This document shows, one piece after another, positions 28,308-46,980 of a DNA stretch of 53,466 nucleotides. Origin of the DNA: Thermoanaerobaculia bacterium (GTDB lineage Bacteria > Acidobacteriota > Thermoanaerobaculia > Gp7-AA8). How positions within the stretch are numbered: position 1 is the first letter of the stretch; the number at the start of each line of letters is the position of its first letter. Location: assembly GCA_017883235.1 (NCBI GenBank), contig JADGNY010000031.1:1-53466 (forward strand), written 5' to 3'. The notes beneath the pieces were generated by a model. It was not told where the DNA came from and did not search any database. It saw nothing but the letters and a program-made list of their open reading frames with translations. Position numbers and translations under genes: made by a program.

Positions 28308-28344
28308 CGGCGAGACGATCGCGAAGGGCACCGCCTCCCTCTCG

Positions 28345-30065: not shown

Positions 30066-30066
30066 A

Positions 30067-30123
30067 CGGATCACGACGCAGTCGGCGCTCGATCTGCTGC
30101 GATTGTTCATCGTGCGCGGGTGA
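30067..30123 (+). pseudogene. 3' remnant of a second cinA allele
   Basis: These 57 bp match the last 57 bp of cinA (28251-28307) at 51 positions and translate to RITTQSALDLLRLFIVRG plus stop, against RITTQSALDLLRLFIVRA in cinA. Four of the six differences are silent third- or first-position changes (ATT/ATC, TTG/CTG, CGG/CGA, CTG/TTG). The other two lie in one codon and change the last residue. The pattern shows that the remnant came from a cinA that was once under protein-level selection, so it is a different allele rather than a passive copy. It follows the 35-bp repeat by one base. Confidence 0.8.
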
Positions 30124-30139
30124 CGTACACTTTGTGTGC

Positions 30140-30896: not shown

Positions 30897-31832
30897 ATGA
30901 TCGAAAGCTTTGCCCACCTCCAGCAAATTGCCCTCGACCGCGACCTCGCCGACGTCTTTCTGGAGAGCGACGAGCAGGAGCACGCCGTTCCCGGGGACCA
31001 GATCCTCGAAGCGCTGCGCCGCCGCCGCGCCGTGATGCGCGATTGCGTGGAGCGCGGCAAGGGCGGCGGCACGTCGATGGGGAAGCTGGTCGGCAACGAG
31101 GCCAAGCTGCTCAATGACGCCTTCCTGGCCGGGCGTACGTTCCTCGATCCGCTGACGGTCAAGGCCGAGATCTACGCGCTGTCGGTGATGGGGGAGAACT
31201 CGCGGATGGGGGTCATCGTCGCCGCGCCGACGGCCGGTGCTGGGGGCGTCGTCCCGGGCATGCTGCTGGCGCTGGAGGAAGAGCGCAACATCGATATTGA
31301 AAAGACCGTCCGCGCACTCGTCGTCGCCGGCGGAGTGGGCTCGATCATCGCCCTTTCAGCCAACATCTCCGGCGCCGCCGGCGGTTGTCAGAACGAGGTT
31401 GGCGTGGCCGCGGCGATGGGCGCGGCTGCCGTCGCCTACATGATGGGCGGAACACCTCGTCAATCCATTCACGCCGCCGCGATCGCTCTCAAGAACACCC
31501 TCGGCCTGGTCTGCGATCCGGTCGGCGGCCTGGTGGAAGTGCCGTGTGTGAAGCGCAACGCCATCTTCGCCGTCCATGGCCTCACCGCGGCGCAGCTCGC
31601 CCTCGCCGGCGTCGAGTCGGTCATCCCGATGGACGAGGTCGTCGAAGCGATGGTTCGCATCGGCCGTGCCCTCCCGCGCGGCCTTCGCGAGACCGCCGAA
31701 GGCGGCCTGGCCACCACCCTCACCGGCTGCACCATCGGCGATCGCCTCAAGACCGAAGCGAACGAACGCCGGGCGGAGCGGGCGGCGGAGAGGGAGCGGG
31801 CGGCCCAGGAGAGGAAGGAGTCGGTGCACTAG
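30897..31832 (+). CDS. sdaAA: L-serine ammonia-lyase, iron-sulfur, alpha subunit
   Basis: This 311-residue protein matches the SDH alpha domain: GTSMGKLVGNEAKLLND, APTAGAGGVVPGMLLAL, AGGCQNEVGVAAAMGAAA and LVCDPVGGLVEVPCVKRN. The cysteines in these motifs hold the [4Fe-4S] cluster that removes water from L-serine to give pyruvate and ammonia. The beta subunit or domain is not present next to it, so it must be encoded elsewhere or be a two-gene form. ATG 30897 follows GGAG. A longer start at 30855 would read through a 35-bp direct repeat. The stop is followed at once by the palindromic end of the next cassette. Confidence 0.93.
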   Translation: MIESFAHLQQIALDRDLADVFLESDEQEHAVPGDQILEALRRRRAVMRDCVERGKGGGTSMGKLVGNEAKLLNDAFLAGRTFLDPLTVKAEIYALSVMGENSRMGVIVAAPTAGAGGVVPGMLLALEEERNIDIEKTVRALVVAGGVGSIIALSANISGAAGGCQNEVGVAAAMGAAAVAYMMGGTPRQSIHAAAIALKNTLGLVCDPVGGLVEVPCVKRNAIFAVHGLTAAQLALAGVESVIPMDEVVEAMVRIGRALPRGLRETAEGGLATTLTGCTIGDRLKTEANERRAERAAERERAAQERKESVH

Positions 31833-31898
31833 CTGCGCGGAGCGCGTTATCTGCGCTAACGCGCGTTGTCGGTTGTCTGCGCGCTGCGGCGCGCGTGG
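31831..31898. repeat. Left inverted end of the DUF2442 cassette
   Basis: The inner 38 bp (31861-31898, including gttgtcggttgtctgcgcgc) are the exact reverse complement of 32189-32226. The outer part (agctgcgcggagcgcgtta) matches the outer right end imperfectly. The end starts on the last base pair of the serine dehydratase stop codon. Confidence 0.93.
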
Positions 31899-31945
31899 AC
31901 CAGACGGAGGAGTCAGCCGAGTGCTGGTGAACCCTTGGAGTAGCT

Positions 31946-32188
31946 ATGCCTGACGTTATCGAAGTTCGTTATGTGCGCGACTACACCGTCTGGATCAAGT
32001 TCGACGACGGTACGCAGGGTGATGTCGATATTTCGCGGTCCTTCAAAGGTCCGGTGTTCGAGCCGTTGCGCGATCGCGAGTACTTCAGGCAGGTACGGGT
32101 AAACCCTGATCTGGGTACGATCGTCTGGCCGAACGGCGCAGATGTCGCTCCGGAAACGTTGTACGAACGGGTCCAGGTGACGGCCTGA
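31946..32188 (+). CDS. DUF2442 protein, cargo of an inverted-repeat cassette
   Basis: This 80-residue protein matches the DUF2442 pattern: VRYVRDYTVWIKFDDGTQGDVDIS, GPVFEPLRDREYFRQVRVNPDLGTIVWPNGADVAPETLYE. The family often sits beside DUF4160 genes and is suspected to be the antitoxin-like half of a toxin-antitoxin pair, but no partner gene is present here. The ATG has GGAG six bases upstream. The gene is bracketed by 38-bp perfect inverted repeats. The right one begins at the base after the stop codon and the left one ends 47 bp before the start. This packing suggests that the gene moves as a unit with its ends. Confidence 0.88.
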   Translation: MPDVIEVRYVRDYTVWIKFDDGTQGDVDISRSFKGPVFEPLRDREYFRQVRVNPDLGTIVWPNGADVAPETLYERVQVTA

Positions 32189-32259
32189 CCACGCGCGCCG
32201 CAGCGCGCAGACAACCGACAACGCGCGCGAAGCGCAGACAACGCGCGAAGCGCAGTTAC
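32189..32259. repeat. Right inverted end of the DUF2442 cassette
   Basis: The first 38 bp are the perfect inverse of 31861-31898. The rest (gcgaagcgcagacaacgcgc, then gaagcgcagtta) continues with hairpin units with a GAA loop. It ends beside the stop codon of the GWxTD gene on the other strand. Confidence 0.93.
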
Positions 32260-34832
32260 GGGTAATACCCCCGAATCGTCTTCGCCTTCCCCTCGCTCAC
32301 CTGCACATCCACTGTGCGCCACTTCGATCCCGGCTTCACCCCCTCCGGCGGATAGAAGCCGAGGATGTATTGGGAGCGGAGCTCGTTCTGGATGTCGGTG
32401 TAGATGCGGCCCAGGTCGGAGGCTTGATCGATGTAGTAGGCGTTCCCTCCGGTCTCGCTGCAGAAGTGGCTGAGTTTGTAGCGGGCGTCGACTTCGCTCA
32501 TCCGGATGCCGATGCCGATGGCGTAGATGGGAACGGCGGCGCGGCGGGCGTACTCGATGGCCTGATCGTACGAGAACTTCGAGGACGTGTCGTTGCCGTC
32601 GGTGACCAGGACCAGCGCGCGCTGTCCCTTCACGCCGAGGAAGTTGTAGAGCGAGTAGACGATGGCGTCGTAGAGAGATGTCGACTCTTCCGCGCGCAGT
32701 TTGGCCAGGCTCGCGTTCATATCAGCAAGGTGAGGTGACCAATGCTGGATGAGCTGAGGCTGTGAATCGAACGACACGAGAAAGGCGCGATCGCCCTTGC
32801 GCATCACGTTCGTGAAGAACTGCGAGGCTGCCTTCTGCGCCTCGGCCATCCGCGGCTGCATCGACGCCGAGGTGTCGATGGCAAGGCCGATCGAGAGTGG
32901 GAGGTTGGTCACGTGCTCGAACCTGGCCACCTTCACCGGCTTCCCTTCATCGAGCACGGTGAACGCCTGTTGCTGCAGGTCATTCACGGGATGGCCGTCG
33001 CGCAGGACGGTGGTCGGCATCTCGACGAGATGAACGTTGACCTCCTCCATGAACTGCGGCGCGTTGAACGTCACTACGTCTTCGATGGGTGGCTGCTCGG
33101 GAACGTCCTTGAGCGACGCCACCGCGCGGAGGTAGCCGATGCTACCGGTCGATGGGATGTCGATGACCTGCACGTACGGTGGTCCGAAGAGCGTGGCCAC
33201 ACGCGCTTCGTTGAGGAAGAGCTCGAGTCTGTCGAGTTGCTTTCCCTCGGGGACGTTGACGGCCATCTCCACGCGCGTGCGCCCATGCAGCTTCAAGGCG
33301 ACGCGGGGCGAGACGATGTGGACGCGGAATGGATCGTTTCCGGTGTTCACGGTGGCCTCGTCGCCCCCGATCATTTCTCCTTTGTCGTTCAGGGCCATGG
33401 CGCGAATGCGATGGACCTGGGGAACGCTGCCGAAGTCGAGATCGAGGGCGTAGGGCGGCTGGCGTTTGCTCATGATCTTTCGTCCGTCGAGGTAGAACTC
33501 GACGGCGGCGACGCCTTCGCCCTCGACGACCGTATCGATGTGCTGCGTCCCGCTGAGCAACTCGTCCGGCAGAGGGAGGATGCGCAGCATCGGCGCGTTC
33601 GACTCGATCCTCTCCTTGATCGTCTCCAGCGCCGCCGCCGAGGTCTCCTTCAGCCGCTGCGCCTCGGGCGAGCCGGCGATCTCCGGGACGGTGATCTTCT
33701 GCTCGATGATCGCCTCGGCTGTGCCGTTCAAGTCGGCGATCTTGATGCGCGCCTGGTACTCGGCCGGCTGGAGGAGCCGGTCGACGACGACCGCGAGCTG
33801 GTCGGACTTGACGTCGGCGGGGTAGTCAAAGCGGTACCGATAGCTTTCGAAGAGTCTGTCGTCCTTCAGCACCTCGCCGACGACGTCGAGGCTGTAGAGC
33901 TTCGCTCCACCGACCTCCTTCAGGACGAGCTGCGCCCGCGGCACGAGAATCGTCATCTCGGCGGCGGTGCGGCTGCCCTGTTTCGCGGGATAGGAGACGG
34001 AGAGCTGCGCCGGCAGCGGCTTCGCGCCGGATGTGGGCATGACTACCGAATGGAAGATCTTGCGAACCTGCTCCGGATCGACCGCGGGCGGTTGGAAAAG
34101 CCGGGCGTTGTCGAGCGTCCGGAGTTGCACCGCTCGGATGGCACTCAGTGTCTGGTCGGATCCTGTGCACTCATCCTGCAGGTGAGTGATGAGCATGCGC
34201 GGCACGAGCCCGAACACTCGTTGCATTGCCGCTTCCTTGCTGCTGGTCGTGGCCACAACCATGTTCGAAAAGAGGTCGTATAGCGCATCCGAGCCGTTCG
34301 AATACGGTTGCCACAAGAGGTAGTCGGAACCCAGGCGCGGAAGATAGAAGAGGAATCGCGCTTGGCCCTCGAATCCCTTCAGACCGCGGTACGTCCAGAA
34401 CTCCATCGGCTGAAGGAGGACGCAGTCGGGCGGAACCCAGATCTCGGGTTCTCCATGGAGTACGTAGGCACGCGCGCGGTCTGTGCTGAGCGATCGATAG
34501 CGTTCCTTTGCCGTGACCAGGCGCTCGTAGTAGACCTGCCGGAAGTCGCCGATTCCCTCGGTCAGGCCGTGCCGGCGCCAGAAGTCGTCAATGTAGAGGT
34601 CGCGCTGGACGTCGCTCTCCAGGATCAGGAAGGTATCGAGCTCCGTCTCCTGCATGATCGGCTCGACGTCGGTGAGGAACTGCCGGTAGATATCCGCGAG
34701 CTTCGCGATCCGCTCCTTGCGCTCGCGGCGCGAAAGCTTGACGACGCCTTGGGCCGACGGCGGCGGAAGCGTCTGTGCGACCCCGGCCAGGCCGAACGCA
34801 AAGAGGAGAAGAACGGCCGTGGCCACGGACAA
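32256..34832 (-). CDS. Secreted GWxTD / VWFA-related protein 1
   Basis: This protein of about 858 residues begins with a signal-like hydrophobic segment (ATAVLLLFAFGLAGVAQ). Next comes a GWxTD-type region (SRRERKERIAKLADIYRQFL, DDFWRRHGLTEG, VLHGEPEIWVPPDC) and, from about residue 600, a VWFA-related domain with the MIDAS motif IDTSASM and the Acidobacteria-type ending YILGFYPPEGVKPGSKWRTV. It is about 60 percent identical by eye to the next gene, so the pair is a tandem duplication. Such proteins are thought to be extracytoplasmic adhesion or assembly factors. The TTG start follows AGGTGG. A longer frame to 35327 would run through repeat arrays and is rejected. Confidence 0.85.
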   Translation of the reverse strand: MSVATAVLLLFAFGLAGVAQTLPPPSAQGVVKLSRRERKERIAKLADIYRQFLTDVEPIMQETELDTFLILESDVQRDLYIDDFWRRHGLTEGIGDFRQVYYERLVTAKERYRSLSTDRARAYVLHGEPEIWVPPDCVLLQPMEFWTYRGLKGFEGQARFLFYLPRLGSDYLLWQPYSNGSDALYDLFSNMVVATTSSKEAAMQRVFGLVPRMLITHLQDECTGSDQTLSAIRAVQLRTLDNARLFQPPAVDPEQVRKIFHSVVMPTSGAKPLPAQLSVSYPAKQGSRTAAEMTILVPRAQLVLKEVGGAKLYSLDVVGEVLKDDRLFESYRYRFDYPADVKSDQLAVVVDRLLQPAEYQARIKIADLNGTAEAIIEQKITVPEIAGSPEAQRLKETSAAALETIKERIESNAPMLRILPLPDELLSGTQHIDTVVEGEGVAAVEFYLDGRKIMSKRQPPYALDLDFGSVPQVHRIRAMALNDKGEMIGGDEATVNTGNDPFRVHIVSPRVALKLHGRTRVEMAVNVPEGKQLDRLELFLNEARVATLFGPPYVQVIDIPSTGSIGYLRAVASLKDVPEQPPIEDVVTFNAPQFMEEVNVHLVEMPTTVLRDGHPVNDLQQQAFTVLDEGKPVKVARFEHVTNLPLSIGLAIDTSASMQPRMAEAQKAASQFFTNVMRKGDRAFLVSFDSQPQLIQHWSPHLADMNASLAKLRAEESTSLYDAIVYSLYNFLGVKGQRALVLVTDGNDTSSKFSYDQAIEYARRAAVPIYAIGIGIRMSEVDARYKLSHFCSETGGNAYYIDQASDLGRIYTDIQNELRSQYILGFYPPEGVKPGSKWRTVDVQVSEGKAKTIRGYYP

Positions 34833-34865
34833 AAACCGCCCACCTTGAACGCGCGCGAAGGGCTT

Positions 34866-35095
34866 ATGCGCCGCGTTAGCGGCGACAAAGACGGTAGCCG
34901 GGGGTGCGAGCGTTTTTTGCGAGCACCCCTGGACCGATGCGATCCGAAATCGTGCCGCGTCAGCGGCACTGGAGTGGATGCCGGATGCTCCGGTGCCGCT
35001 GACGCGGCACGATTCTTGGGGATCTTCGTACCAGGGGTGCTCGCAAAAAGCGCTCGCACCCCTGGCTACCTTCTGTCGGCCGCTGACGCGGCGAC
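34866..35095. mobile_element. Nested-hairpin element between the GWxTD paralogues
   Basis: Two arms of about 110 bp face each other. The best part, 34893-34932 against 35031-35070, agrees at 38 of 40 positions. Each arm contains three hairpins: gccgcgttagcggc, ggtgcgagcgttttttgcga with cacc, and gtgccgcgtcagcggcac. The arms hold no gene. The hairpin spelling differs from the element at 28790-29035 but the mirrored triple-hairpin plan is the same. It lies upstream of GWxTD gene 1 and may hold or block its promoter. Confidence 0.85.
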
Positions 35096-35117
35096 GTAAC
35101 ATCCAAGCCCCATCACG

Positions 35118-35262
35118 CGCGAAGAGCGCAGACAACGCGCGGAGCGCAGACAACGCGCGGAGCGCAGACAACGCGCGGAGCGCAGACAACGCGCGGAGCG
35201 CAGACAACGCGCGGAGCGCAGGCAACGCACGAAGTGCAGACAACGCGCGGAGCGCAGCTCTC
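35118..35262. repeat. 18-bp tandem array of gcagacaac hairpins
   Basis: About eight units of cagacaacgcgcggagcg run at exactly 18 bp from 35129. Each unit has the spacer agacaac and a small hairpin gcgc-gga-gcgc. One unit (35219-35236) reads gcac-gaa-gtgc, where both sides of the stem changed together. The array ends at the stop codon of the second GWxTD gene. Confidence 0.9.
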
Positions 35263-37918
35263 ACGGGTAGTAACCGCGAATCGTCTTCGCCTTGCCGTCG
35301 CTGACCTGTACCTCCACGGCTCGCCATTTCGAGCCCGGCTTGACGCCCTCGGGCGGGTAGAAGCCGAGGATGTATTGGGAGCGCAGCTCGTTCTGGATGT
35401 CGGAGTAGATGTGTCCCAACTGGTTGGCGTTATCGATGTAATAGGCGTTGCCGCCGGTCTCGCTGCAGAAGCGGCTCAGTTTGTAGCGCGTGTCGACTTC
35501 GGTGCTCCGAATGCCGATGCCGATGGCGTAGATTGGAACCGCGGCGCGGCGGGCGTACTCGAGGGCCTGATCGAAGGAGAACTTCGATGAGGTGTCCATG
35601 CCGTCGGTGACGAGCACCAGCGCGCGCTGCCCTTTCACGCCGAGGAAGTTGTAGAGCGAGTAGACGACGGCGTCGTAGAGCGCCGTCGACTCCTCGGCGC
35701 GAAGCTTGGCCAGCCCCGCGTTCATGTCGGCAAGGCGCGGCGACCAGCGTTGGATGAGCAGCGGCTGGGTATCGAACGACACGAGGAATCCCCGGTCGCC
35801 CTTCCGCATGACGTTCGTGAAGAACTGCGAAGCCGCCTTCTGTGCCTCCGCCATCCGCGGCTGCATCGACGCCGAAGTGTCGATGGCCAGGCCGAGCGAG
35901 AGCGGCAGATTGTTCACGTGCTCGAACTTCGACACCTTCACCGGTTTCCCTTCGTCCGTCACCTTGAACGCCGCTTCGAGAAGGTCGTTGATCGGATGGC
36001 CGCCGCGCATCACGGTGGTCGGCAGCTCGACGAGGTGGACGTTCACCTCCTCCATGAACTGCGGCGTATTGATCATCACCAGGTCTTCGACCGGCGGTTG
36101 TGCATCCTCCTGCAGCGAAGCGACGGCGCGGATGTAGCCGACTCCTTCCTGGGCCGGGATCTCGATGGTCTGGACGTACGGCGGTCCGTACAGAGAGGCC
36201 ATCTTCGTGTCATTGAGGAACAGCTCGACGTGATCGAGCTTCTTCCCCTCGGGGACGTTGACGGCCATCTCCACGCGCGTGCGGCCGTGAAGCTTGAAGG
36301 CGATGCGCGGCGAGATGATGCGCACGCGGAACGGATCGTTGCCGGTATTGAGGACGATCTCATCGCCGGTGATGGCCTCGGCGCTGTTGTTGAGCGCCAC
36401 GGCGCGCACGTGGCGCACCTGCGGCACGTTGCCGAAGTCGAGATCGAGCGTGTACGGCGGCTGGTGCTTGGTCATCACCTTCTTGCCGTCGAGGTAGAAC
36501 TCGACCGCCTTGATGTCGTCGCCGAAGGCGATGGTCTCGATGTGCTGGATCCCGCTGAGCAGATCGTCGTTGAGCGGCACGATGCGCAGCCGCGTGGTGT
36601 TCGAATCGATGTCGTCCTTGAGCTGAGACAGCGCCGTGGTGGCGCTCTCCTTCGCTTTCTGCTGTTCCGGCGTGTCGAAGATCTCCGGCACGGTGAGCTT
36701 CTGTTCGACGATGGCCTCGGCGCCGGAGTTGATGTCCTGAACGCGCACGCGGGCCATGTACTCGTTGGGACGGAGGAAGCGATCGATGACCACGGCAACC
36801 TTGTCGTCCTTGATGTCGCCGGGGTAGTCGAAGCGGTAGCGATAGTTTTCGAAGAGCTGGCCCTCTTTCAGCACTTCGCCGGTGACGTCGAGGCTGTAGA
36901 GCCTGGCGTTGTTGACTTCCTTCAGCGTGAGCTGCGAACGGGGCACGAGGATCGTGATCTCTGCGTCGGTGCGGCTGCCCTGCTTGGCCGGGTATTTCAC
37001 GCTGATCTCATGGGGGAGTTGAGGCGCGCCCGGGGTCGCCAGGACGACGGAGCGGAGGATCTTGTGGACATCTTCCTCATTGACCGGCGGCGGCTCGAAG
37101 ATACGCATGAGGTCGAACTTGTTCAACTGCGCCTGATAGACAGCGCGCAGGAATTCATCGCCGTCCTTGCACCGATACTCGAGGTTCGTCATCGACGTGC
37201 CTGGAGACGCCGGCCCGAAGACCCGTTGCGTGGCGGAATCGCCGTTGATGTCAGTTCCGATCTCGTCCTGCGAGATCAGCTCCTTCATGGCTTCGTTGTC
37301 GAACGGCGCGAAGAGCTTGTAGTCGATTCCGGCGCGCGGCTTGTAGAAGAGGAAGCGAACGTCGTGCCCAAGGTTCTGGACGAAGCCGTACTTCCAGATC
37401 TCGGCGGGCTGCATCAGCCGGCAATCGAACTTGATGCGCTCGTCAGGCTGGCCATGGATCAGAAAGATGCGGCCGCGGTCGGAGGAGACGTTCTTGAACT
37501 CCTCCCTCACGGTCTCGAGACGCTCGTAATACTGATCGCGAAAGCTGTGATTGGTCGTGCCGTTGGCGACGTCGCGGCGGCGCCAGAATTCGGTGATGTA
37601 GATGTCGTGCTGCGGGTCGGTCTCGAGAATGAGGTAGGTGTCGAGCTCCGCAGGATTCATGATCGGATCGACGTCGGTCAGGAACTGGCGGTACTTTTCG
37701 CTGAGGTTCTTGATGCGGTCTTTGCGCTCGCGGCGGGAGAGTTTGCGCACGCCTTGATCGGGGGCGGGCGGTTTCGCTTTCGCATCTGGTGCTGGGGCGG
37801 GAGCGGCCGCTGGTGCCGGCGGCGCCGGCTGCGGATCAGGTTGCGCGGGAGGGGTTTGTGCGAACGTCGCCACCGCGGCGAACATCACGGCAATCAAGAC
37901 GGCAATGATCTTGTTCAT
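35261..37918 (-). CDS. Secreted GWxTD / VWFA-related protein 2
   Basis: This 885-residue protein has a clear signal peptide (MNKIIAVLIAVMFAAVATFA), then a proline-alanine linker of about 35 residues, a GWxTD-type region (SRRERKDRIKNLSEKYRQFL, ITEFWRRRDVANG, FLIHGQPDERIKFDC) and a VWFA-related domain with IDTSASM and YILGFYPPEGVKPGSKW. The middle part, with FYLDGKKVMTKHQPPYTLDL, looks like immunoglobulin-type beta domains. It is upstream of its paralogue on the same strand and starts 38 bp from the divergent cysteine desulfurase gene. Its role is likely at the cell surface or in the periplasm, but the partner is unknown. Confidence 0.9.
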   Translation of the reverse strand: MNKIIAVLIAVMFAAVATFAQTPPAQPDPQPAPPAPAAAPAPAPDAKAKPPAPDQGVRKLSRRERKDRIKNLSEKYRQFLTDVDPIMNPAELDTYLILETDPQHDIYITEFWRRRDVANGTTNHSFRDQYYERLETVREEFKNVSSDRGRIFLIHGQPDERIKFDCRLMQPAEIWKYGFVQNLGHDVRFLFYKPRAGIDYKLFAPFDNEAMKELISQDEIGTDINGDSATQRVFGPASPGTSMTNLEYRCKDGDEFLRAVYQAQLNKFDLMRIFEPPPVNEEDVHKILRSVVLATPGAPQLPHEISVKYPAKQGSRTDAEITILVPRSQLTLKEVNNARLYSLDVTGEVLKEGQLFENYRYRFDYPGDIKDDKVAVVIDRFLRPNEYMARVRVQDINSGAEAIVEQKLTVPEIFDTPEQQKAKESATTALSQLKDDIDSNTTRLRIVPLNDDLLSGIQHIETIAFGDDIKAVEFYLDGKKVMTKHQPPYTLDLDFGNVPQVRHVRAVALNNSAEAITGDEIVLNTGNDPFRVRIISPRIAFKLHGRTRVEMAVNVPEGKKLDHVELFLNDTKMASLYGPPYVQTIEIPAQEGVGYIRAVASLQEDAQPPVEDLVMINTPQFMEEVNVHLVELPTTVMRGGHPINDLLEAAFKVTDEGKPVKVSKFEHVNNLPLSLGLAIDTSASMQPRMAEAQKAASQFFTNVMRKGDRGFLVSFDTQPLLIQRWSPRLADMNAGLAKLRAEESTALYDAVVYSLYNFLGVKGQRALVLVTDGMDTSSKFSFDQALEYARRAAVPIYAIGIGIRSTEVDTRYKLSRFCSETGGNAYYIDNANQLGHIYSDIQNELRSQYILGFYPPEGVKPGSKWRAVEVQVSDGKAKTIRGYYP

Positions 37919-37956
37919 CTGGGACCTCGGGATACGAAGGACAATAGACGACTCTC

Positions 37957-39087: not shown

Positions 39088-39398
39088 TCCGCCATTTCCC
39101 ATTCGCACTTCGAGAGGAGAGCGGGCGTCCGCGCCTGCTCCCGACGGGCGTCTCGCCCGGCGGTGGGGCCGAAGGCGAACGTAACTTTTGGGTGAGAGAC
39201 GGCGATGTCTCCATCCGCGTTTTTGGGATTCAACCTGCTTGATGGCTGACCCACCGCCGGGCGAGACGCCACGGCGGGAGCAGGCGAGACGCCCGCTCTC
39301 CGTCTTCGGCGCCTTCTACTCCGAACCCGAGTCCGGCCCTCACATCGAATAACCCTTGCCCAGTCACGGTTTGTTTGGCACAGTTGTCGACGGTCCTG
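39088..39398. mobile_element. MITE-like inverted-repeat element, copy 2 (core 39117-39301)
   Basis: The core starts gagagcgggcgtc and ends gacgcccgctctc, with arms cgcctgctcccg and cgtctcgcccggcggtgggg, as in the copy at 642-825. The arms and even parts of the centre (aaggcgaac, gacggcgatgtctcc) match the first copy. The unmatched centre differs by indels. It lies between the cysteine desulfurase and DUF4388 genes. The remaining 39302-39398 holds no gene that I can see. Confidence 0.9.
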
Positions 39399-40532: not shown

Positions 40533-40941
40533 CGGCTCGGGATCTCATCCTGACGGCGAGCACCGCGAGCCTGTCAGGATCTTCGGTGAGACCGCGCGAC
40601 AGGTGTCGTTGATCTCATCCTGACGGCGAGCGCAGCGAGTCTGTCAGGATCTCTGGTGATACCGCGGGACCGTTGAGTTATTGATCCCATCCTGACGGCT
40701 CGCGCAGCGAGTCTGTCAGGATCTCTGGTGATACCGCGCGACAGTTGATTCGCTCAGGTTAGACGGTATCCAGTCGCTGGGGTCGTTGATTCCATCGTGA
40801 ACAAACCAACTGCCGCGCGGCACCACCGGAGATCCTGACAGGCTCGCTGCGCGAACCGTCAGGATGGACTGCCCCCAAATCAACTGCAGCGCGGCACCAC
40901 CGGAGATCCTGACAGGCTCGCTACGCTCGCCGTCAGGATAG
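40525..40941. repeat. Cluster of atcctgacgg palindromes (three left-type, two right-type)
   Basis: Five main hairpin units lie in 400 bp, plus one truncated copy at 40525. Three read atcctgacgg...ctgtcaggatct followed by ctggtgataccgcg, starting at 40547, 40617 and 40689. Two read in the opposite sense, accaccggagatcctgacag...gtcaggat, near 40815-40866 and 40890-40940. The stem loops keep pairing while bases vary. A short spacer of about 55 bp lies between the last left-type and first right-type unit. The same repeats bracket the GIY-YIG gene at 41766. The first unit includes the stop codon of the DUF4388 gene, and the last ends 16 bp before lgt. Confidence 0.9.
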
Positions 40942-40955
40942 ACTGCACCACCAGC

Positions 40956-41756
40956 ATGTATCCGACTCTCCTCAAAATCGGCTCCTTCGAGATCACCACC
41001 TTCGGCCTGATGATGTTCGCGGCGTTCATCATCGGCGGGTGGGTGTTGACGCGGCAGTTCCGCCGCTACGGTCTCAGCGACGACGCCGCGTCATCGATCG
41101 TCATGGCGGCCGCGCTCGGCGGAATCGCCGGAGCGAAGATCTATTACGCGATTCTTTTCCGCGACTGGCACCTTCTGCTCGACCGCGCGGGCCTGGTCTG
41201 GTACGGCGGCCTGATCGGCGGCCTTCTTGGCTGCAGCGGCTACATCCTGGTGAAGAAACTCGATTTCTTCAACGTCGCCGATGCCGCCGCCCCGGGGCTG
41301 GCGATCGGTTACGCGCTCGGCCGCATCGGATGTTTCCTCGTCGGCGACGACTACGGCCGGCCGACGGATTCGTGGATCGGTATCGCCTTCCCCAAGGGAT
41401 CGCCGCCGACGACCGCCGAGTCGCTCCGGCAGTTCGGAGTGCATCTCGACCCCTCGATTCCTCCTGATCAGATCTTGCGCGTGCATCCGACGCAGCTCTA
41501 CGAGTCCGCCTCCGCGTTCGTGATGTTCGCGATCCTGATGTACGCCTCCCGCCGCCCCCACCCGAAGGGACGGATCTTCGGCCTCTTCCTGATCCTGATG
41601 GGCATCGAGCGCTTCCTCGTGGAGATCGTCCGCGCCAAAGACGACCGCTTCCTCGGGCCATTTACAGTGGCGCAGTTGATTAGCGTGATCGTGTTCGTGG
41701 TAGGGGTTGGTTTAATCCTGAACCGTCGCGAAGCGAGGGTTCAGGATCTCCGGTGA
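40956..41756 (+). CDS. lgt: Prolipoprotein diacylglyceryl transferase
   Basis: This 266-residue membrane enzyme has about seven hydrophobic segments and the Lgt signature GRIGCFLVGDDYGRPTD, with the Arg and conserved Gly, preceded by WYGGLIGGLLG. HPTQLYES and KGRIFGLFLILMGIERFLVEIVR complete the pattern. It transfers diacylglycerol from phosphatidylglycerol to the lipobox Cys of prolipoproteins in the inner membrane and is usually essential. The final residues (NRREARVQDLR) and stop codon come from a palindromic repeat that has been inserted at the 3' end, so the natural C-terminus may be a few residues different. Confidence 0.95.
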   Translation: MYPTLLKIGSFEITTFGLMMFAAFIIGGWVLTRQFRRYGLSDDAASSIVMAAALGGIAGAKIYYAILFRDWHLLLDRAGLVWYGGLIGGLLGCSGYILVKKLDFFNVADAAAPGLAIGYALGRIGCFLVGDDYGRPTDSWIGIAFPKGSPPTTAESLRQFGVHLDPSIPPDQILRVHPTQLYESASAFVMFAILMYASRRPHPKGRIFGLFLILMGIERFLVEIVRAKDDRFLGPFTVAQLISVIVFVVGVGLILNRREARVQDLR

Positions 41757-41764
41757 GGCCGCGC
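41715..41764. repeat. Left inverted end of the GIY-YIG cassette
   Basis: A hairpin (atcctgaacc...ggttcaggat, 41715-41747) is followed by ctccggtgaggccgcgc. The segment 41744-41764 is the inverse of 42073-42093 at 19 of 21 positions. The hairpin overlaps the end of lgt. Confidence 0.92.
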
Positions 41765-41765
41765 T

Positions 41766-42068
41766 GTGGGTGGCTATGTCTACATCCTCAGCAATAAGAG
41801 CCATCGGCTCTACATCGGTGCCACGACCGACCTTGTTCGGCGGATCACAGAGCACTGGCAGAAGAAATACCAAACAGCGTTCACAGCGCGATACCACTTC
41901 GATCATCTGGTCTACTACGAGGTAATGTCGGACTTTGCCGCTGCACTCGTGCGCGAGAGCGCGATGAAGCAGTGGCATCGTGCAAGAAAAGTGGCGTTGA
42001 TTCAGCTCAAGAATCCGAACTGGCTCGATCTCACATGGCAATTGAACGATTTGTCGTTTCTGCGATGA
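41766..42068 (+). CDS. GIY-YIG nuclease-like protein in an inverted-repeat cassette
   Basis: This 100-residue protein is a single GIY-YIG domain of the UPF0213/YhbQ size: GYVYILSNKSHRLYIGATTDLVRRITEH, with both tyrosines and the Arg, then YYEVMSDFAAALVRESAMKQWHRARKVALI with the catalytic Glu. It could nick DNA. The GTG start comes one base after the left inverted end, and the TGA stop is four bases before the right one, so the gene fills the space between the two palindromic ends almost completely. It has no homologue elsewhere in the window. The nuclease activity is inferred from the family. Confidence 0.85.
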   Translation: MGGYVYILSNKSHRLYIGATTDLVRRITEHWQKKYQTAFTARYHFDHLVYYEVMSDFAAALVRESAMKQWHRARKVALIQLKNPNWLDLTWQLNDLSFLR

Positions 42069-42072
42069 GCCG

Positions 42073-42123
42073 GCGCGGCGCCACCGGAGATCCTGACAGG
42101 CTCGCTGCGCGAGCCGTCAGGAT
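42073..42123. repeat. Right inverted end of the GIY-YIG cassette
   Basis: The first 21 bp are the inverse of the left end, and a hairpin follows (atcctgacaggctcgc, loop, gcgagccgtcaggat). It ends on the stop codon of the convergent aroC gene. Confidence 0.92.
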
Positions 42124-43295
42124 TAATACTTCGCAACCCGCGCTACATAACCATCAAAGTTCGCCCTCATCTCCCCAAGAGAATCCCCCCCGAACTTCTC
42201 CCTCATCGCGTCCGCCAGCGTAATCGCCAGCATCGCCTCGCAGACGACGCCGCAGGCGGGGACGGCGGTGACGTCGCTTCGTTCCCACTGCGAGCGATGT
42301 GGCTCGTGCGTTTCGATGTCGACCGAGGGCAGGCCGCGGCGCAAGGTGGAGATCGGCTTCATGTACGCGCGGACGACAACGTCCTGTCCGTTGGTCACGC
42401 CTCCTTCGAGGCCGCCGGCGCGGTTCGACGTGCGGTGATAGCGCCGTTCTTCGTCGAAGTAGATCGGGTCATGAACCTCGGAGCCGGCACGCCGCGCGGC
42501 AGCCACGCCGTCGCCAACGGACACGGCTTTGACGGCGTGAATGGAGAGGATGGCCTGGGCGATGCGGCCGTCCAGCTTCTCGTTCCACTGTACGTACGAC
42601 CCGAGGCCGACGGGGACGTTGTGCGCGGCGGCGACGATCGTGCCGCCGAGCGTTTCGCCCGCTTCCCGGGCCTTGTCGACCGCGGCCACCATGGCGTCCT
42701 CGGCGTGGCGATTCACGGCGCGCAGCGGAGAATCGTCATCGACTGCGAGGAGCTCGTCCCACGACGGCGCGTAGTCAGAATCTCCCGCGGCGCCGACGGA
42801 GACGACGCCGGAACGCAGCTCGATACCAAAGTTGCGCAACAGTTCCTTGGCAATCGCCCCGGCGGCAACGCGCGAGGCCGTTTCGCGCGCCGAAGCGCGC
42901 TCGAGGATGTCGCGGAGATCGCGGCGGTCGTACTTCATCCCACCGATCAGATCGACATGTCCCGGCCGCGGTGCATGAACCCGCCGTTTCGCCACCTCGG
43001 CTGGATCGACATCCCACACACCCATCGCCGCTTCCCAGTTCCGGAAGTCGTCGTTGCGGACGACGATGGCGATCGGGGAGCCGAGCGTTTCGCTGCCGCG
43101 CACGCCGCCGGCGATCTCGACCTCATCGTGCTCGATCTTCATCCGCCCGCCGCGCCCATAGCCGTGCTGCCGGCGCGCCAGGTCGCGGTTGATCCGCCCG
43201 CGGTCGAGCCGCACCCCTGCCGGCATTCCGGTCACGATGACCGTCAGTTGCGGCCCGTGCGACTCGCCGGCGGAGAGGAACGTGAAGTGCGGCAT
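42123..43295 (-). CDS. aroC: Chorismate synthase
   Basis: This 390-residue enzyme matches chorismate synthase throughout: FTFLSAGESHGPQLTVIVTGMPAG, RRQHGYGRGGRMKIEHDEVEI, GGMKYDRRDLRDILERASARETASRVAAGA, and RYHRTSNRAGGLEGGVTNGQ. It converts EPSP to chorismate using reduced FMN, the last step of the shikimate pathway, and so feeds the trp operon encoded further on. The length is typical. It is followed by the ICMT-like gene 11 bp upstream on the same strand, so the two may be co-transcribed. The stop codon overlaps the palindromic end of the GIY-YIG cassette. Confidence 0.96.
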   Translation of the reverse strand: MPHFTFLSAGESHGPQLTVIVTGMPAGVRLDRGRINRDLARRQHGYGRGGRMKIEHDEVEIAGGVRGSETLGSPIAIVVRNDDFRNWEAAMGVWDVDPAEVAKRRVHAPRPGHVDLIGGMKYDRRDLRDILERASARETASRVAAGAIAKELLRNFGIELRSGVVSVGAAGDSDYAPSWDELLAVDDDSPLRAVNRHAEDAMVAAVDKAREAGETLGGTIVAAAHNVPVGLGSYVQWNEKLDGRIAQAILSIHAVKAVSVGDGVAAARRAGSEVHDPIYFDEERRYHRTSNRAGGLEGGVTNGQDVVVRAYMKPISTLRRGLPSVDIETHEPHRSQWERSDVTAVPACGVVCEAMLAITLADAMREKFGGDSLGEMRANFDGYVARVAKY

Positions 43296-43306
43296 CGTGG
43301 GGAAGT

Positions 43307-43864
43307 CTAGTAGATGCCGGGGATCAGCCGCTTCGAGCGCCGCATGTACTCGCGATAGCGGTCGCCGAAGTGCTCGACCAGCGCGCCTTCCTCCACCGCG
43401 ATGCGATACGAGAAGCCGGCGATGGTCGCCGCCGCGATGATAGCCACACTGAGCCAGTTGCGGAAGGCGAATCCGAGCCCGAGGAACGAGAGCAGCGAAC
43501 CGGTGTACGCGGGATGGCGAATGACGCCATAGAGCCCGCGGTCGACAAGCTCGTGACCCTCGCGGATGGAGACGTCGACGGTGAAGTAACGCCAGAGCGT
43601 GGCGATGGCGATCGCGCGGACGATGATGCCAATGACGATGAGACCAAGTCCGAGCCAGAAGGTGTCATATCCAATCCTCGCCGGCCGATAGCCCTTGACC
43701 ATCGATCCAGCAAACGTAGCGATGGTGATCCCTCCCCACAACAACCACAGCGATCCGCGATCGCGCCGCGAAGCGTTGCCGCGGGCGTGTTTGAGGACCA
43801 TGACCAGGAGTTCCGAAGCGACCCAGATGGAGGAGACGATAGCGAGGAGTTTTCCGTGAGTCAT
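43307..43864 (-). CDS. ICMT/PEMT-like integral membrane methyltransferase
   Basis: This 185-residue protein has four or five hydrophobic segments and the family ending GLYGVIRHPAYTGSLLSFLGLGF, followed by EEGALVEHFGDRYREYMRRSKRLIPGIY, with the RHP and GE-like motifs of isoprenylcysteine carboxyl methyltransferases. These enzymes use S-adenosylmethionine to methylate small or lipid substrates at the membrane. It lies 11 bp upstream of aroC on the same strand. The substrate is unknown in bacteria of this kind. Confidence 0.88.
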   Translation of the reverse strand: MTHGKLLAIVSSIWVASELLVMVLKHARGNASRRDRGSLWLLWGGITIATFAGSMVKGYRPARIGYDTFWLGLGLIVIGIIVRAIAIATLWRYFTVDVSIREGHELVDRGLYGVIRHPAYTGSLLSFLGLGFAFRNWLSVAIIAAATIAGFSYRIAVEEGALVEHFGDRYREYMRRSKRLIPGIY

Positions 43865-43947
43865 GGCGGAATGGTACGTGCTTGCTAGATGGGAGTTTCA
43901 CACGCCGCACGCTACGTTTTTTTGCCCTCGCGCTACACTCGTCATCA

Positions 43948-45087
43948 ATGGACAAGTCCTCCCTCCGCGACCTCTTCCCCGTCACGAAGAACGTCGTCTA
44001 CTTCAACCACGCCGCCGTCGGACCGCTGTCGACGCGCGCGTACGAGGCGATGGAGACGTTCATCCGGGATCAGCGCGACTTCGGGGCGTTGCACTGGAAG
44101 GATTGGTACGCCGAGTACGTCCATCTGCGTGCGTCCGCGGCGAAGCTGATCGGCGCGGAGCCGGGCGAGATCGCCATCCTCAAGAACACCTCCGAAGGGT
44201 TGTCGTTCGTCGCGGAGGGGTTTCGCTGGGATCGGGGAGACAACGTCGTCACCACCGATCTCGAGTTTCCTTCCAACTCCACGCCCTGGAGAAAACTTGA
44301 CAGGCGAGGGGTTGACGTGCGCGTGGTGCGGAGTCACGACGGCGCCTTCACCGTCGATGACGTCGCGCGCTGCATCGATGGGCGGACGCGCATCGTCACC
44401 GTTTCGTCGGTGGCCTTCCACAACGGCTTCGCCGCCGACCTCGACGCTATCGGCGACCTGTGCGCGCGGCGCCACGTCCTCTTCTGCGTCGATGCCATCC
44501 AATCCGTCGGCGTCCTCCCGATCGACGTGAAGCGGTCGAAGATCGCCTTCCTGGCCGCCGACGGGCACAAGTGGATGTGCGGCTCCGAGGGGGCGGCCAT
44601 CTTCTTCGTCGCGGCGGAACATCGCCACAAGTTGGAAGTGCTCGAAAACGGCTGGACGAACATCGAGCGCAAGGGGAAGTTCATCGACTGCCCGATCGAC
44701 CTGATGCCGGACGCGCGGCGATTCGAGGCGGGGTCGTTGAACACCAGCGGCATCTACGGACTGCGCGCCGCCATCGACCTGCTGCTGGAGATCGGGATTG
44801 CTGATATCAGCGAAGAGACGACACGTATCGCCGCGCTGCTGGCGAACCGGCTCGACGACATCGGCTGGCGGGTGGCCTCGCCGCGTCCTATCCGCTCCGG
44901 GATCGTCGGTGCGATTCCGCCGCCGGGCGAAACGTCACTCCTGAAGTGGCACCGTCTGCTGGAGGAAAACGGCGTCATCTGTGCGCCCCGCGAGGGGATG
45001 CTTCGCTTCTCACCGCACTTCTACAATGTGGAGAGTGAGATCGACCGGGTCATCGACGTGCTGAGAGGCGCTGCCGCGCACGCTTGA
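43948..45087 (+). CDS. Class V aminotransferase-fold PLP protein
   Basis: This 379-residue enzyme belongs to the aminotransferase class V superfamily (cysteine desulfurase / serine-glyoxylate / isopenicillin epimerase group): VVYFNHAAVGPLSTRAYEAM, LKNTSEGLSFVAEG, NVVTTDLEFPSN, the cofactor Asp in VDAIQSVGVLPIDV and the PLP Lys in LAADGHKWMCGSEG. No catalytic Cys loop like that of NifS is visible, so a desulfurase role is not supported. The ATG reading MDKSSLRD is chosen, as an upstream start would add a Phe/Arg-rich stretch without a site. The reaction is unknown. Confidence 0.9.
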   Translation: MDKSSLRDLFPVTKNVVYFNHAAVGPLSTRAYEAMETFIRDQRDFGALHWKDWYAEYVHLRASAAKLIGAEPGEIAILKNTSEGLSFVAEGFRWDRGDNVVTTDLEFPSNSTPWRKLDRRGVDVRVVRSHDGAFTVDDVARCIDGRTRIVTVSSVAFHNGFAADLDAIGDLCARRHVLFCVDAIQSVGVLPIDVKRSKIAFLAADGHKWMCGSEGAAIFFVAAEHRHKLEVLENGWTNIERKGKFIDCPIDLMPDARRFEAGSLNTSGIYGLRAAIDLLLEIGIADISEETTRIAALLANRLDDIGWRVASPRPIRSGIVGAIPPPGETSLLKWHRLLEENGVICAPREGMLRFSPHFYNVESEIDRVIDVLRGAAAHA

Positions 45088-45118
45088 CCATCCGAGAGGG
45101 AGACCTCATCATCGTTTC

Positions 45119-46489
45119 ATGCCTGTCATGACGATTCTTCTCAGCGTGATCGCCCTGGTCATCGGCGCGATTCTTGGCGTGATCAGCGGCTGGGTGGTTG
45201 CGAGCGCGAGGAAAACCGGCGAGATTCAGCGTGCCCTGGCCGAGCGCGATCTCGCGCGCGCGGAGCGCGAGCGCAGCGAGGCGGTGGCGGCCGAGGCGCG
45301 CCGCGTGGCGTCCATCGAATCGCAGGCCCGCGCGGTCGCCGAGACCCAGGCCGGCTTTCTGAGTGATACCCGCAAACAGATGGAAGAGGCATTCGCCGCC
45401 ACAGCGCAGAAAACGCTCGCATCGATCAGCACGACCTTCCTCGAACTGAACAAAGCGCACCTCGACGGCTCCAAAGGGGAGATCGTCTCCTCGCTCGACA
45501 CCAAGAAGGCTGAGATCGGCACGATGCTCCAGCCGTTGCGCGAAATGCTCGACCGCTACGCCGGAGATCTGACCAAGAGCGAGCATTCGCGCAACGAGGC
45601 TTACGGCGGCCTGCAGGAGCAGATCCGCTCGCTGCTTGCGGCGCAGGAGCTCTCGCAGCGCGAAGCGACGCGCCTGGCAAACGCACTCGACTCGCCGGCC
45701 GTGCGCGGCTCGTGGGGGGAGAACTCACTGCGGCGCTGCATCGAGCTGGCCGGAATGAGCGAGTTGTGCGACTTCGACGCGCAGGAGACCTTCCTGAGCG
45801 ATGAGGGACGGCGTCTGCGGCCGGACGTCGTCATCCATCTCCCCAACAAGCGCGTGATCGCCGTCGACGCCAAGGTGCCGCTGACCGACTACAGCATCGC
45901 CGCCAACGAGAGCGATGAGCCGCGCAAACGGGAGGCGCTCGTCGCCCACGCCCGCACGCTGCGCCGCCACATCGAATCGCTCAGCCGCAAGGAGTACCAG
46001 GCCAGCGTAGGCGACAGCCTCGATTTCACGGTCATGTTCCTCCCCGGCGAGCACTTCCTCTCCGCGGCCCTGGTCACCGATCCGATGCTCTTCGAGTACG
46101 CGGTCGAAAAGAAGATCTATCTGGCCTCGCCAACCGTCCTCCTGCCGCTGTTGCGCGCCGTGGCCGCGGGATGGAAAGCCGAGCGCACCGAGGAGAACGC
46201 CAAGAAGATGCACGACGCCGGCGTCGAGCTCTTCAACCGTTTCGTGAAGGTGATGGACCTCATCTCCGAGATCGGCGGTGCGCTGGCAAAGACCGTCGAG
46301 CAGTACAACAAAGCGATCCGTTCCATCGACACGCGCCTCTGGCCGAAAGGACAGGAACTGCAACGGATGGCCGGCAGCGGCAAAGAGCTGGAGCCGCTCT
46401 CCCAGGTCGACACCGTCCCCCTCGAGTCGTCGAAGCTGCGTTTGACGATGCAAGGGGAGGAGCCGGCGGAGGTGTTGCCGTTCCCGTGA
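45119..46489 (+). CDS. rmuC: DNA recombination protein RmuC homologue
   Basis: This 456-residue protein starts with one membrane segment (ILLSVIALVIGAILGVISGWVV), continues with a coiled coil rich in Ala, Glu and Arg (residues 35-160), and ends with the RmuC domain: RGSWGENSLRRCIELAGM, RLRPDVVIHLPNKRVIAVDAKVPL, MFLPGEHFLSAAL and VLLPLLRAVAAGW. The DVVI...DAKVPL core resembles a PD-(D/E)XK nuclease fold. RmuC limits recombination at inverted repeats in E. coli, which is noteworthy in a genome so rich in palindromes. The stop is directly followed by the left palindromic end of the next cassette. Confidence 0.93.
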   Translation: MPVMTILLSVIALVIGAILGVISGWVVASARKTGEIQRALAERDLARAERERSEAVAAEARRVASIESQARAVAETQAGFLSDTRKQMEEAFAATAQKTLASISTTFLELNKAHLDGSKGEIVSSLDTKKAEIGTMLQPLREMLDRYAGDLTKSEHSRNEAYGGLQEQIRSLLAAQELSQREATRLANALDSPAVRGSWGENSLRRCIELAGMSELCDFDAQETFLSDEGRRLRPDVVIHLPNKRVIAVDAKVPLTDYSIAANESDEPRKREALVAHARTLRRHIESLSRKEYQASVGDSLDFTVMFLPGEHFLSAALVTDPMLFEYAVEKKIYLASPTVLLPLLRAVAAGWKAERTEENAKKMHDAGVELFNRFVKVMDLISEIGGALAKTVEQYNKAIRSIDTRLWPKGQELQRMAGSGKELEPLSQVDTVPLESSKLRLTMQGEEPAEVLPFP

Positions 46490-46493
46490 GAGC

Positions 46494-46553
46494 GCTTCGC
46501 GCGTTGTCTGCGCCTTCGGCGCGTTGTCGGTTGTCTGCGGCTATCGCCGCGTG
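46494..46553. repeat. Left inverted end of the antitoxin cassette
   Basis: The 60 bp including gcgttgtcggttgtctgcgg and ccgcgtgg are the inverse of 46910-46980 with small indels. They start five bases after the rmuC stop codon and belong to the same family as the ends of the DUF2442 cassette. Confidence 0.92.
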
Positions 46554-46611
46554 GACGACGTTGGAAGAGTAGGGCGAGAGGGCAGGGCTCGAAGTGGGGT
46601 TAGATGGATCC

Positions 46612-46896
46612 GTGAAAACAACCATCGAGATTTCGGACGAGTTGTCCATGAAAGCCGAAGAGGCTGCCGCCTCGAGAGGCGAAACACTCCAAGAGTTCGT
46701 CATCGGAGCGCTCACGGCACGCATCGAGTCAGTGACCCAGCCGGCGTCTCATCTATCCGGATGGCGTAGCGTTTTCGGACTCGCCGACCCGAAGATGGTT
46801 CAGGGGATTGACACGCTGATCGCCGCAGAGTTCGAACAGGTGAATCCCTCCGAGTGGCTCCCCTCACCCCGACGAGGCCGCCGACGTCACAAGTGA
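46612..46896 (+). CDS. Ribbon-helix-helix antitoxin-like protein, cargo of a cassette
   Basis: This 94-residue protein begins KTTIEISDELSMKAEEAAASRGETLQEFVIGALTARI, the strand-helix-helix fold of small antitoxins related to VapB/Arc. The C-terminus (VFGLADPKMVQGIDTLIAAEFEQVNPSEW) matches the usual toxin-binding tail of VapB-like proteins. No toxin gene is adjacent: trp genes follow on one side and rmuC precedes on the other, so it looks like an orphan antitoxin. A GTG start at 46594 or 46612 is possible. The gene is bracketed by inverted palindromic ends of the same family as the DUF2442 cassette. Confidence 0.78.
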   Translation: MKTTIEISDELSMKAEEAAASRGETLQEFVIGALTARIESVTQPASHLSGWRSVFGLADPKMVQGIDTLIAAEFEQVNPSEWLPSPRRGRRRHK

Positions 46897-46909
46897 CCAC
46901 CGACAACCG

Positions 46910-46980
46910 ACCACGCGCCGCAGCGCAGACAACCGACAACGCGGCGAAGCCGCAGACAACGCGGCGCGAAGCGCCGCAGT
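46910..46980. repeat. Right inverted end of the antitoxin cassette
   Basis: This end runs ccacgcgccgcagcgcagac, then aaccgacaacgcg and two hairpins with a GAA loop (gcggcgaagccgc, gcggcgcgaagcgccgc), and closes with cagtta. It aligns along its whole length with the right end of the DUF2442 cassette at 32189-32259. It lies about 20 bp upstream of the trp leader. Confidence 0.92.

Follow-up and report, generated by a model that had tools for sequence, protein, structure and literature searches.

A 53,466-nt stretch of the genome of a Thermoanaerobaculia bacterium (contig JADGNY010000031.1), referred to here in its entirety as the window, carries a small standalone GIY-YIG nuclease gene set between two inverted copies of a palindrome, designated F2, in the interval separating lgt from aroC. 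Standalone GIY-YIG genes across many phyla were found to lie between repetitive extragenic palindromic (REP) sequences of the CGTC type far more often than other genes do. The locus in the window, numbered from its first base, contains the following features.

41715..41755, plus strand: left F2 palindrome, stem ATCCTGAACC, tail CTCCGGTG; faces the GIY-YIG gene and overlaps the lgt stop codon
41766..42068, plus strand: standalone GIY-YIG nuclease gene, 100 amino acids (aa), GTG start; PF01541, E 1.1e-14
42083..42123, minus strand: right F2 palindrome, ACCGGAG followed by ATCCTGAC..GTCAGGAT; opposite in orientation to the left copy and directly adjoining the stop of aroC
40956..41756, plus strand: lgt, left neighbour of the GIY-YIG locus; stop at 41756, inside the left F2 palindrome
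42123..43295, minus strand: aroC, right neighbour of the GIY-YIG locus; stop at 42123
40547..40939, no strand assigned: array of five F2 palindromes (three on the plus strand, then two inverted), upstream of lgt

In the F2 element, CCGGAG precedes the stem ATCCTGAC..GTCAGGAT in the direction leading away from the gene. When the flanks of the GIY-YIG gene were aligned locally in inverted orientation, the score was 28. The sequence CCGGAGATCCTGAC, allowing at most one mismatch, was present at 212 sites in the 6.92-Mb genome, and minus/plus F2 pairs about 60 bp apart were common among the 100 sites listed.

Standalone GIY-YIG genes lie between CGTC-type REPs in many phyla

REPs have been divided into the GTAG and CGTC superfamilies, of which the GTAG REPs go with REP-associated tyrosine transposases (RAYTs) (Di Nocera, De Gregorio, Rocco 2013, PMC3733652, in the parts of that paper drawn on here). 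In those same parts, CGTC REPs "apparently lack a dedicated transposase", it is suggested that CGTC REPtrons may have vanished early, and both the Neisseria element dRS3 (CGTC-1) and the Rickettsia elements RPE-4 and RPE-6 are counted as CGTC REPs (PMC3733652).

Small GIY-YIG genes in genomes related to that of the window were in many cases framed by inverted repeats, often of the GTCATCCTGAG kind, and in some cases had none. The association was measured on a cross-phylum sample of the best 80 of at least 558 confirmed loci, collected by a protein-pattern scan that took one genome per species and was blind to repeats; 77 of these loci were scorable. Standalone genes less than 80 bp from a contig end and GIY open reading frames (ORFs) of more than 260 aa (UvrC-like) were left out. 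The control ORFs were the longest ORFs of at least 70 aa at the same loci and lay over 400 bp away from the GIY gene.

An inverted-match score of at least 14 between the two flanks was reached by 50 of the 77 GIY-YIG genes and by 4 of the 199 control ORFs (3 of the 105 small ones; Mann-Whitney p = 1.5e-22). The majority of the 50 best arm pairs displayed resemble [CT]GTCATnnnGAG..GAnnnATC, with exceptions. When the flanks were scanned for a motif of GTC, then ATnnn, then a complementary nnnAT, a CGTC-type REP was found on both sides of 51/77 GIY-YIG genes compared with 5/199 controls (2/105 small controls), and on at least one side of 70/77 compared with 46/199. This GTC-ATnnn motif was about nine times denser than in reversed sequence. 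The cross-phylum brackets have the terminal CGTC or TGTC tag beside a stem beginning AT by which CGTC REPs are defined. The 51 framed genes carry 16 phylum labels, and four further loci among them come from records that give no phylum. The nearest elements were oriented head-to-head (HH) around 26 GIY-YIG genes, tail-to-tail (TT) around 5 and in tandem around 20. In one genome of the sample, G434, facing plus/minus REP pairs about 70-115 bp apart were visible in the site listing.

Because REPs live in the gaps between genes, gaps adjacent to a GIY-YIG gene were compared with other gaps. A REP was held by 94 of the 117 gaps beside GIY-YIG genes and by 11 of the 94 others (Fisher p = 7e-25), and the difference was kept in every gap-length class.

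A second set was drawn from the phylum of the window genome and comprised the best PF01541 matches together with loci picked from two families that contain REP-rich genomes, f21 and f1. Here 47/80 genes reached the inverted-match threshold compared with 1/130 controls, a rate that is no unbiased estimate because the loci were partly picked from families with REP-rich genomes.

REP stem type follows the GIY-YIG protein tree, and the REP is usually multi-copy

Each gene was given as its REP label the stem most frequent in the 300 bp to either side, and 95 of 146 proteins so labelled were placed on a quick tree, the other 51 having no REP label and being left out; own-phylum entries were stratified by family code. 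REP stem type follows the protein tree. It changed 38 times on the tree, as against a mean of 61.1 changes (minimum 53) when labels were shuffled freely and 51.3 (minimum 45) when they were shuffled within phylum or family code, and none of 300 shuffles reached 38 under either scheme.

In most genomes checked, the REP type found next to the gene is present in multiple copies. For 19 of the 23 cross-phylum loci labelled with an ATTGC stem, copies of GTCATTGCGA were counted; 17 of the 19 genomes contained 14 to 473 sites, the lowest being G436 with 14 against a control count of 4. Five genomes whose brackets have other stems contained 1-16 such sites in four cases and 28 in one. Within family f21, REP copy number rose with the number of PF01541 matches (Spearman 0.48, p = 0.0013, 43 genomes, uncorrected for kinship). 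A tally by eye found 37 of 396 genomes of the phylum with at least 20 GTCATCCYGAGC sites; 28 of these have at least two PF01541 matches, a count that includes KGAxYT-type genes, and 9 have one, presumably UvrC.

The pairing differed between protein types. The inverted-match threshold was reached by 39 of 46 genes for proteins of the NPxWxDL type, and REPs stood on both sides of 0/17 genes for KGAxYT-type GIY-YIG proteins in the sampled phylum, a control that is confounded because these genes come mostly from REP-poor genomes.

Framed loci in named organisms

A tblastn search of a plasmid collection matched 33 records, six of which were fetched, partly for species named in the CGTC-REP paper. 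The GIY-YIG gene was framed in all six, on both sides by the motif script in four and by variant palindromes recognised by eye in two. In Azospirillum lipoferum 4B the gene (L368, 1474-1767) is placed between sufB and sufC and framed by CGTCATCCCC..GGGGATCCAGG, with a pair of palindromes on each side. The Neisseria gonorrhoeae gene is framed by CGTCATTCCCGC..GCGGGAATCTAG, which we take to be dRS3 from the equation of dRS3 with CGTC-1 and from the sequence of dRS3. Those of Rhizobium sp. CIAT894 and Planktothrix agardhii lie between copies of CGTCATCCCAGGG..CCCTGGGATCCACAG and TGTCATTCTGAG..GAAGAATCTC, respectively. The script was negative for the remaining two loci, and inspection by eye identified CTCATCCCTG..CAGGGATCCAG, with the tag CTC, on both flanks in Sinorhizobium meliloti and CGTCGCCCCGTG..CACGGGGC, with a stem that does not start AT, on both flanks in Novosphingobium aromaticivorans.

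The lgt-aroC locus in related genomes

The locus was compared by using lgt as a query over 60 relatives, with neighbouring genes as landmarks in 18 loci, and 14 of the 18 junctions were displayed; the other four lgt loci (L155, L158-L160) gave no GIY match. The interval from lgt to aroC contains a GIY-YIG gene in G000, G002 (81% aa identity), G008 (57%) and G013 (53%), and remnants of one in G007 and, by eye, in G012. Whether aroC points the same way as lgt differs among relatives. Each of these genes or remnants is framed by diverged palindromes with a CTCCGG-like tail, the stems of which differ from genome to genome and the left one of which is truncated in G007. Neither gene nor palindromes were present at this junction in G001, G015 and G011. 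The F2 array upstream of lgt was missing from that place in G001 and in G002, where a single degenerate palindrome stands instead.

Comparison of the G000 and G002 genes gave nonsynonymous and synonymous divergences (dN and dS) of 0.119 and 1.52 (dN/dS ~0.08), a low ratio that shows the window gene to be under purifying selection. A candidate universal palindrome head, ACCGGAGATCC, was rejected, being elevated (at least 14 sites) in just 6 of the 60 relatives, which indicates that the palindromes vary by lineage.

Elsewhere in the window genome, the two other small GIY-YIG genes and the eight other DUF2442 matches had no F1 or F2 bracket within about 1.5 kb, where only isolated weak motif matches were found (F1 is the second repeat family of the window, treated below). 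GTCATCC-type repeats occur near both of these other GIY-YIG genes.

The GIY-YIG protein

PF01541 was matched by all 28 aligned members. Invariant positions in the alignment are Y16, G18, R26, H30, E64 and N83, of which the Y, R, E and N columns are presumably of the catalytic type. The nearest solved structure by sequence is the UPF0213 protein 1zg2 (E 8.5e-7). The predicted fold of the window protein (mean predicted local distance difference test score, pLDDT, 88.9) again returned 1zg2 as the top Foldseek match (E 1.2e-4), followed by 1ywl, Slx1 and UvrC, with I-TevI lower. Similarity to the Slx1 fold is weak, with a Foldseek probability of up to 0.97 and an E above 0.1. A role in defence, sought with PADLOC, was discarded: for the GIY-YIG protein the sole matches were a partial one to UzuA (3.8e-6) and weaker ones to PDC, and the DUF2442 and antitoxin-like proteins of the window gave none.

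A candidate partner enzyme for CGTC REPs

These data suggest that the framed GIY-YIG nuclease is a candidate for the enzyme partner so far missing from a widespread family of bacterial repeats. The reading that we consider probable is that GIY-YIG gene and REP form a widespread two-part system resembling that of RAYTs and their REPs (REPtrons), in which a GIY-YIG nuclease takes the place of the HUH tyrosine transposase. In such a system the nuclease would recognise the hairpin of its own REP, as single-stranded DNA or as a cruciform, and might cut at or near the hairpin base, by analogy with the related branched-DNA nucleases Slx1 and ANKLE1, which are described as acting on junctions. Another REP copy would then serve as the template for repair of the break or be joined to it, and REP dimers could thereby spread as non-autonomous elements, the GIY-YIG gene itself being mostly inherited in place and sometimes lost. 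A stronger form of the proposal falls just short of the balance of probability in our judgement: that single-domain GIY-YIG nucleases are an unrecognised class of mobilising enzymes to which the CGTC REPs, Neisseria dRS3 included, owe both their origin and their spread across bacteria, as a second, HUH-independent system in which a hydrolytic nuclease cuts its cognate hairpin and host repair copies the dimer to new sites.

The original prediction had taken the GIY-YIG gene for interchangeable cargo, named RAYTs and REPs as a partial parallel, and proposed a check for a trans-acting nuclease that co-occurs with the palindromes. The recurrence of the gene with its own repeat type, its conserved locus in related genera and the agreement of repeat type with the protein tree make it look unlike interchangeable cargo; the nuclease to be sought is most likely the supposed cargo itself. 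RAYT/REP does stand as the nearest parallel, and the pairing is, as had been anticipated, apparently undescribed. Enrichment of bracketed small genes over controls, on which the prediction had been staked, was strong for GIY-YIG genes by flank score, by motif and by gap.

The likeness to REPtrons is that a small single enzyme gene is framed by inverted REPs, that the REPs are amplified and that pairing is type-specific; the difference is that the framed gene encodes a GIY-YIG fold and not a Y1/HUH tyrosine transposase. With CGTC REPs the cross-phylum brackets share the GTC tag and the stem beginning AT, and framed loci were found in taxa that the parts of PMC3733652 drawn on here mention by name, namely A. 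lipoferum, S. meliloti and Neisseria. Those parts report no transposase gene, whereas a GIY-YIG gene is a recurrent partner in the present data, and the F2 elements of the window differ from CGTC REPs in having no tag and longer loops. The term GIY-YIG is missing from PMC3733652, and the main text of a 2025 REP survey (PMC12306157), the part considered, contains neither "GIY" nor "transposase". Among the papers listed from the open-access PubMed Central literature, none on a link between GIY-YIG proteins and REPs was found, and no article there contains "GIY-YIG" together with "repetitive extragenic palindromic"; that literature leaves out preprints and the bulk of subscription journals, so this is no proof of absence.

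Other relatives are more distant. The UPF0213 proteins 1zg2 and 1ywl are the nearest solved structures by sequence and fold, but the KGAxYT-type proteins, which in our judgement resemble UPF0213, are not REP-framed. Slx1 and ANKLE1 are likewise GIY-YIG nucleases for branched DNA, but act in eukaryotic repair and have partner subunits or additional domains. An integron cassette has a single attC, and so differs from paired inverted arms around one gene.

Several results weigh against the two-part system. A recognised REP is missing from one or both sides of 26/77 cross-phylum genes, and from both sides of 7 of these. The strict GTCAT motif stood on both sides of just 17/80 own-phylum genes, in part because F2-type elements have no tag: in 0 of the 9 F2 dimers displayed, by eye, does GTC directly precede the AT of the stem, so that the CGTC/TGTC/CCTC tag is absent from an element that otherwise has the stem beginning AT and the inverted dimers of CGTC REPs. 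Lacking the tag, the window element would be a derivative and not a textbook member, and we infer that F2 is a clade-specific one. The ACCGGAGATCC sequence is scarce in G002 (6 sites) although its gene is framed, and GTCATTGCGA is scarce in 2 of the 19 genomes with that bracket stem (G433, 5 sites; G435, 3). At the C43 gene of the window genome, the nearest GTCATCC-type repeats face inward and not outward. Foldseek matches after 1zg2 have E values of 0.088 or worse, and the KGAxYT comparison is confounded as stated. At the lgt-aroC junction of G009 the palindromes are kept and the gene is gone, and no small GIY-YIG gene was detected at E 1e-5 in 9 of the 37 GTCATCCYGAGC-rich genomes, including the two richest, G021 (378 sites) and G009 (356). 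With hundreds of CGTC-type repeats and no small GIY-YIG gene found, G009 and G021 are suited to the study of gene loss after amplification.

The main rival is that the gene is a homing parasite, a selfish GIY-YIG gene that cuts CGTC REPs and inserts into their dimers, the REPs multiplying by other means and serving as its landing sites. Free-standing GIY-YIG homing enzymes are known; they share the catalytic domain and a possible sequence-directed spread with the present proteins, and differ in that the genes here are framed by multi-copy palindromes, with no single defined target known. Homing accounts for the framing and the stem specificity, explains REP-rich genomes without the gene, such as G009 and G021, better than the two-part system does, and could claim the A. 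lipoferum gene between sufB and sufC. Alone, however, it leaves REP amplification and the positive copy-number correlation unexplained, and retention at one locus across related genera and the low dN/dS between two species argue against it. We regard it as unlikely.

Still less likely is a maintenance enzyme, that is, a host nuclease that resolves REP cruciforms, hairpins or transcripts, sits beside REPs for autoregulation and has no part in their spread. Purifying selection and conserved position would suit such an enzyme, as would the presence of the branched-DNA nuclease Slx1 among the nearest folds, weak as those E values are; it does not readily predict like framing in many phyla or stem types that track the tree, and the gene is missing from some REP-rich genomes. 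Mere coincidence, in which REPs crowd the space between genes and by chance come to flank small isolated ones, draws on the abundance and intergenic placement of REPs and on the framing of some controls (5/199), but is contradicted by the gap control in every length class, by the tracking of the tree by stem type and by the framing of all six fetched named loci, and is very improbable.

The origin of CGTC REPs, elements present in several phyla, was not settled in 2013, in the parts of PMC3733652 drawn on here. A type-matched, recurrent nuclease gene lets that origin be tested with a single small protein and a single hairpin. Should the nuclease of the two-part system move the repeats, two or more unrelated enzyme chemistries would underlie the evolution of REP systems, and a gene publicly annotated merely as "GIY-YIG nuclease family protein" would gain a function.

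The F1-bracketed genes of the window

The bracketed DUF2442 and antitoxin-like genes of the window are a phenomenon separate from the pairing of GIY-YIG genes with REPs. They lie between copies of the repeat F1, as follows.

31846..31898, minus strand: left F1 arm of the DUF2442 cassette; 39 nt perfectly complementary to the right arm
31946..32188, plus strand: DUF2442 gene, 80 aa; PF10387, E 3.3e-19; its 3' end is the start of the right F1 arm
32189..32255, plus strand: right F1 arm of the DUF2442 cassette
46492..46552, minus strand: left F1 arm of the antitoxin-like cassette
46594..46896, plus strand: antitoxin-like ORF, 100 aa; TacA1/ParD matches sub-threshold, no Pfam family at E 0.01
46897..46980, plus strand: right F1 arms of the antitoxin-like cassette, two tandem units
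35115..35257, plus strand: tandem array of 18-nt F1-type units, no gene inside

The placement of these two genes and the GIY-YIG gene between inverted repeats agrees with the original prediction; the inverted arms are 39 nt and 100% complementary for DUF2442 and 40 nt and 95% for the antitoxin-like ORF. All three brackets had also been said to touch the stop codons of their neighbours, and bracket elements do contact those of sdaA (31832), a GWxTD/VWA-like gene (32256, minus strand), lgt (41756), aroC (42123, minus strand) and rmuC (46489); the right end of the third cassette does not, trpG starting at 47152. The further claim of one family of interchangeable cassettes was rejected because F1 and F2 are unrelated in sequence and F1 pairs mostly enclose no evident gene.

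F1 contains GCGCAGACAACCGACAACGCG, which was found at 104 sites in the genome at up to two mismatches, often as facing pairs. At up to three mismatches, a search of 30 genomes found 127 sites in this one, 18 in G002 and 0-2 in the other 28. F1 pairs were surveyed in a tight set (61 stretches, the window and L083-L142, pairs less than 800 bp apart) and a loose set (57 stretches, interiors up to 3 kb, with ORFs displayed for interiors above 230 bp and judged by eye, and Pfam applied to the window genes, L107 and L088 only). The 38 tight facing pairs have interiors of 27-666 bp that are mostly non-coding in appearance and differ from pair to pair, several containing other repeats; 3 of the 38 enclose genes, namely DUF2442, the antitoxin-like ORF and the L107 gene. 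In the loose set 4 of 32 pairs enclose a plausible gene, all accessory, and 28 of 32 contain no convincing gene by eye. The pair at L107 4265-4675 encloses a 136-aa 23S rRNA intervening sequence protein (IVP; PF05635, E 3.2e-32), and that in L088 a PIN_12 protein (E 1.6e-12) with a partner ORF that has no Pfam match.

F1 may therefore carry accessory genes, on four cases counted with no base-rate control. It is doubtful that F1 pairs form a non-autonomous element of their own, in which interchangeable accessory genes would ride as cargo between the arms and be moved by some further enzyme. All four gene-bearing pairs do hold accessory genes, and the DUF2442 arms match over 39 of 39 nt; both the antitoxin-like gene and F1 are missing between rmuC and trpG in G001 and G002, and no DUF2442 match was found in six relatives' stretches holding sdaA and the GWxTD-like gene, four of these junctions having been read. 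Against this stand the 28 of 32 pairs without a convincing gene, some with nested repeats, and the near confinement of F1 to this genome.

No adjacent partner toxin was found between the arms among ORFs of at least 55 aa, the DUF2442 cassette containing one ORF and the antitoxin-like cassette one plus an antisense ORF, and a match of DUF2442 to the antitoxin DhiA fell far below the cut-off. A RAYT as the mover of F1 or F2 found no support, the nine Y1_Tnp loci showing just two isolated weak F1/F2 motif matches within about 1.5 kb. The idea that F1 interiors are copies of each other or of other places in the genome was likewise set aside; among the matches listed, only F1 units or nested repeats appeared.

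The sdaA/GWxTD-like junction carries different inverted-repeat pairs in different relatives (L175, L177 and L181), and may thus be a recurrent landing site for palindromes. On the minus strand at 32256-37918 the window contains two tandem paralogues, GWxTD/VWA-like by our reading, about 3.0 kb apart and 73-86% identical in aligned blocks, and the 18-nt F1 array sits at their junction. Nested inverted repeats lie at 34889-35074, with an outer pair GGTAGCC..GGGGTGCGAGCG..GCGAGCACCCC that resembles a GTAG-tagged REP and an inner pair with the core GTGCCGC..GCGGCAC. A 61-nt direct repeat (28249-28309 and 30065-30125, 90% identical) corresponds to the 3' end of a gene that we take to be CinA-like, and its second copy lies just upstream of a VapB-like/VapC pair (30134-30824), as if an insertion had duplicated the end of its target gene. 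At L088 5230-5600, the F1 pair with the PIN_12 gene contains what by eye resembles a repeat of the sequence that follows the right arm, and this recalls the 61-nt duplication.

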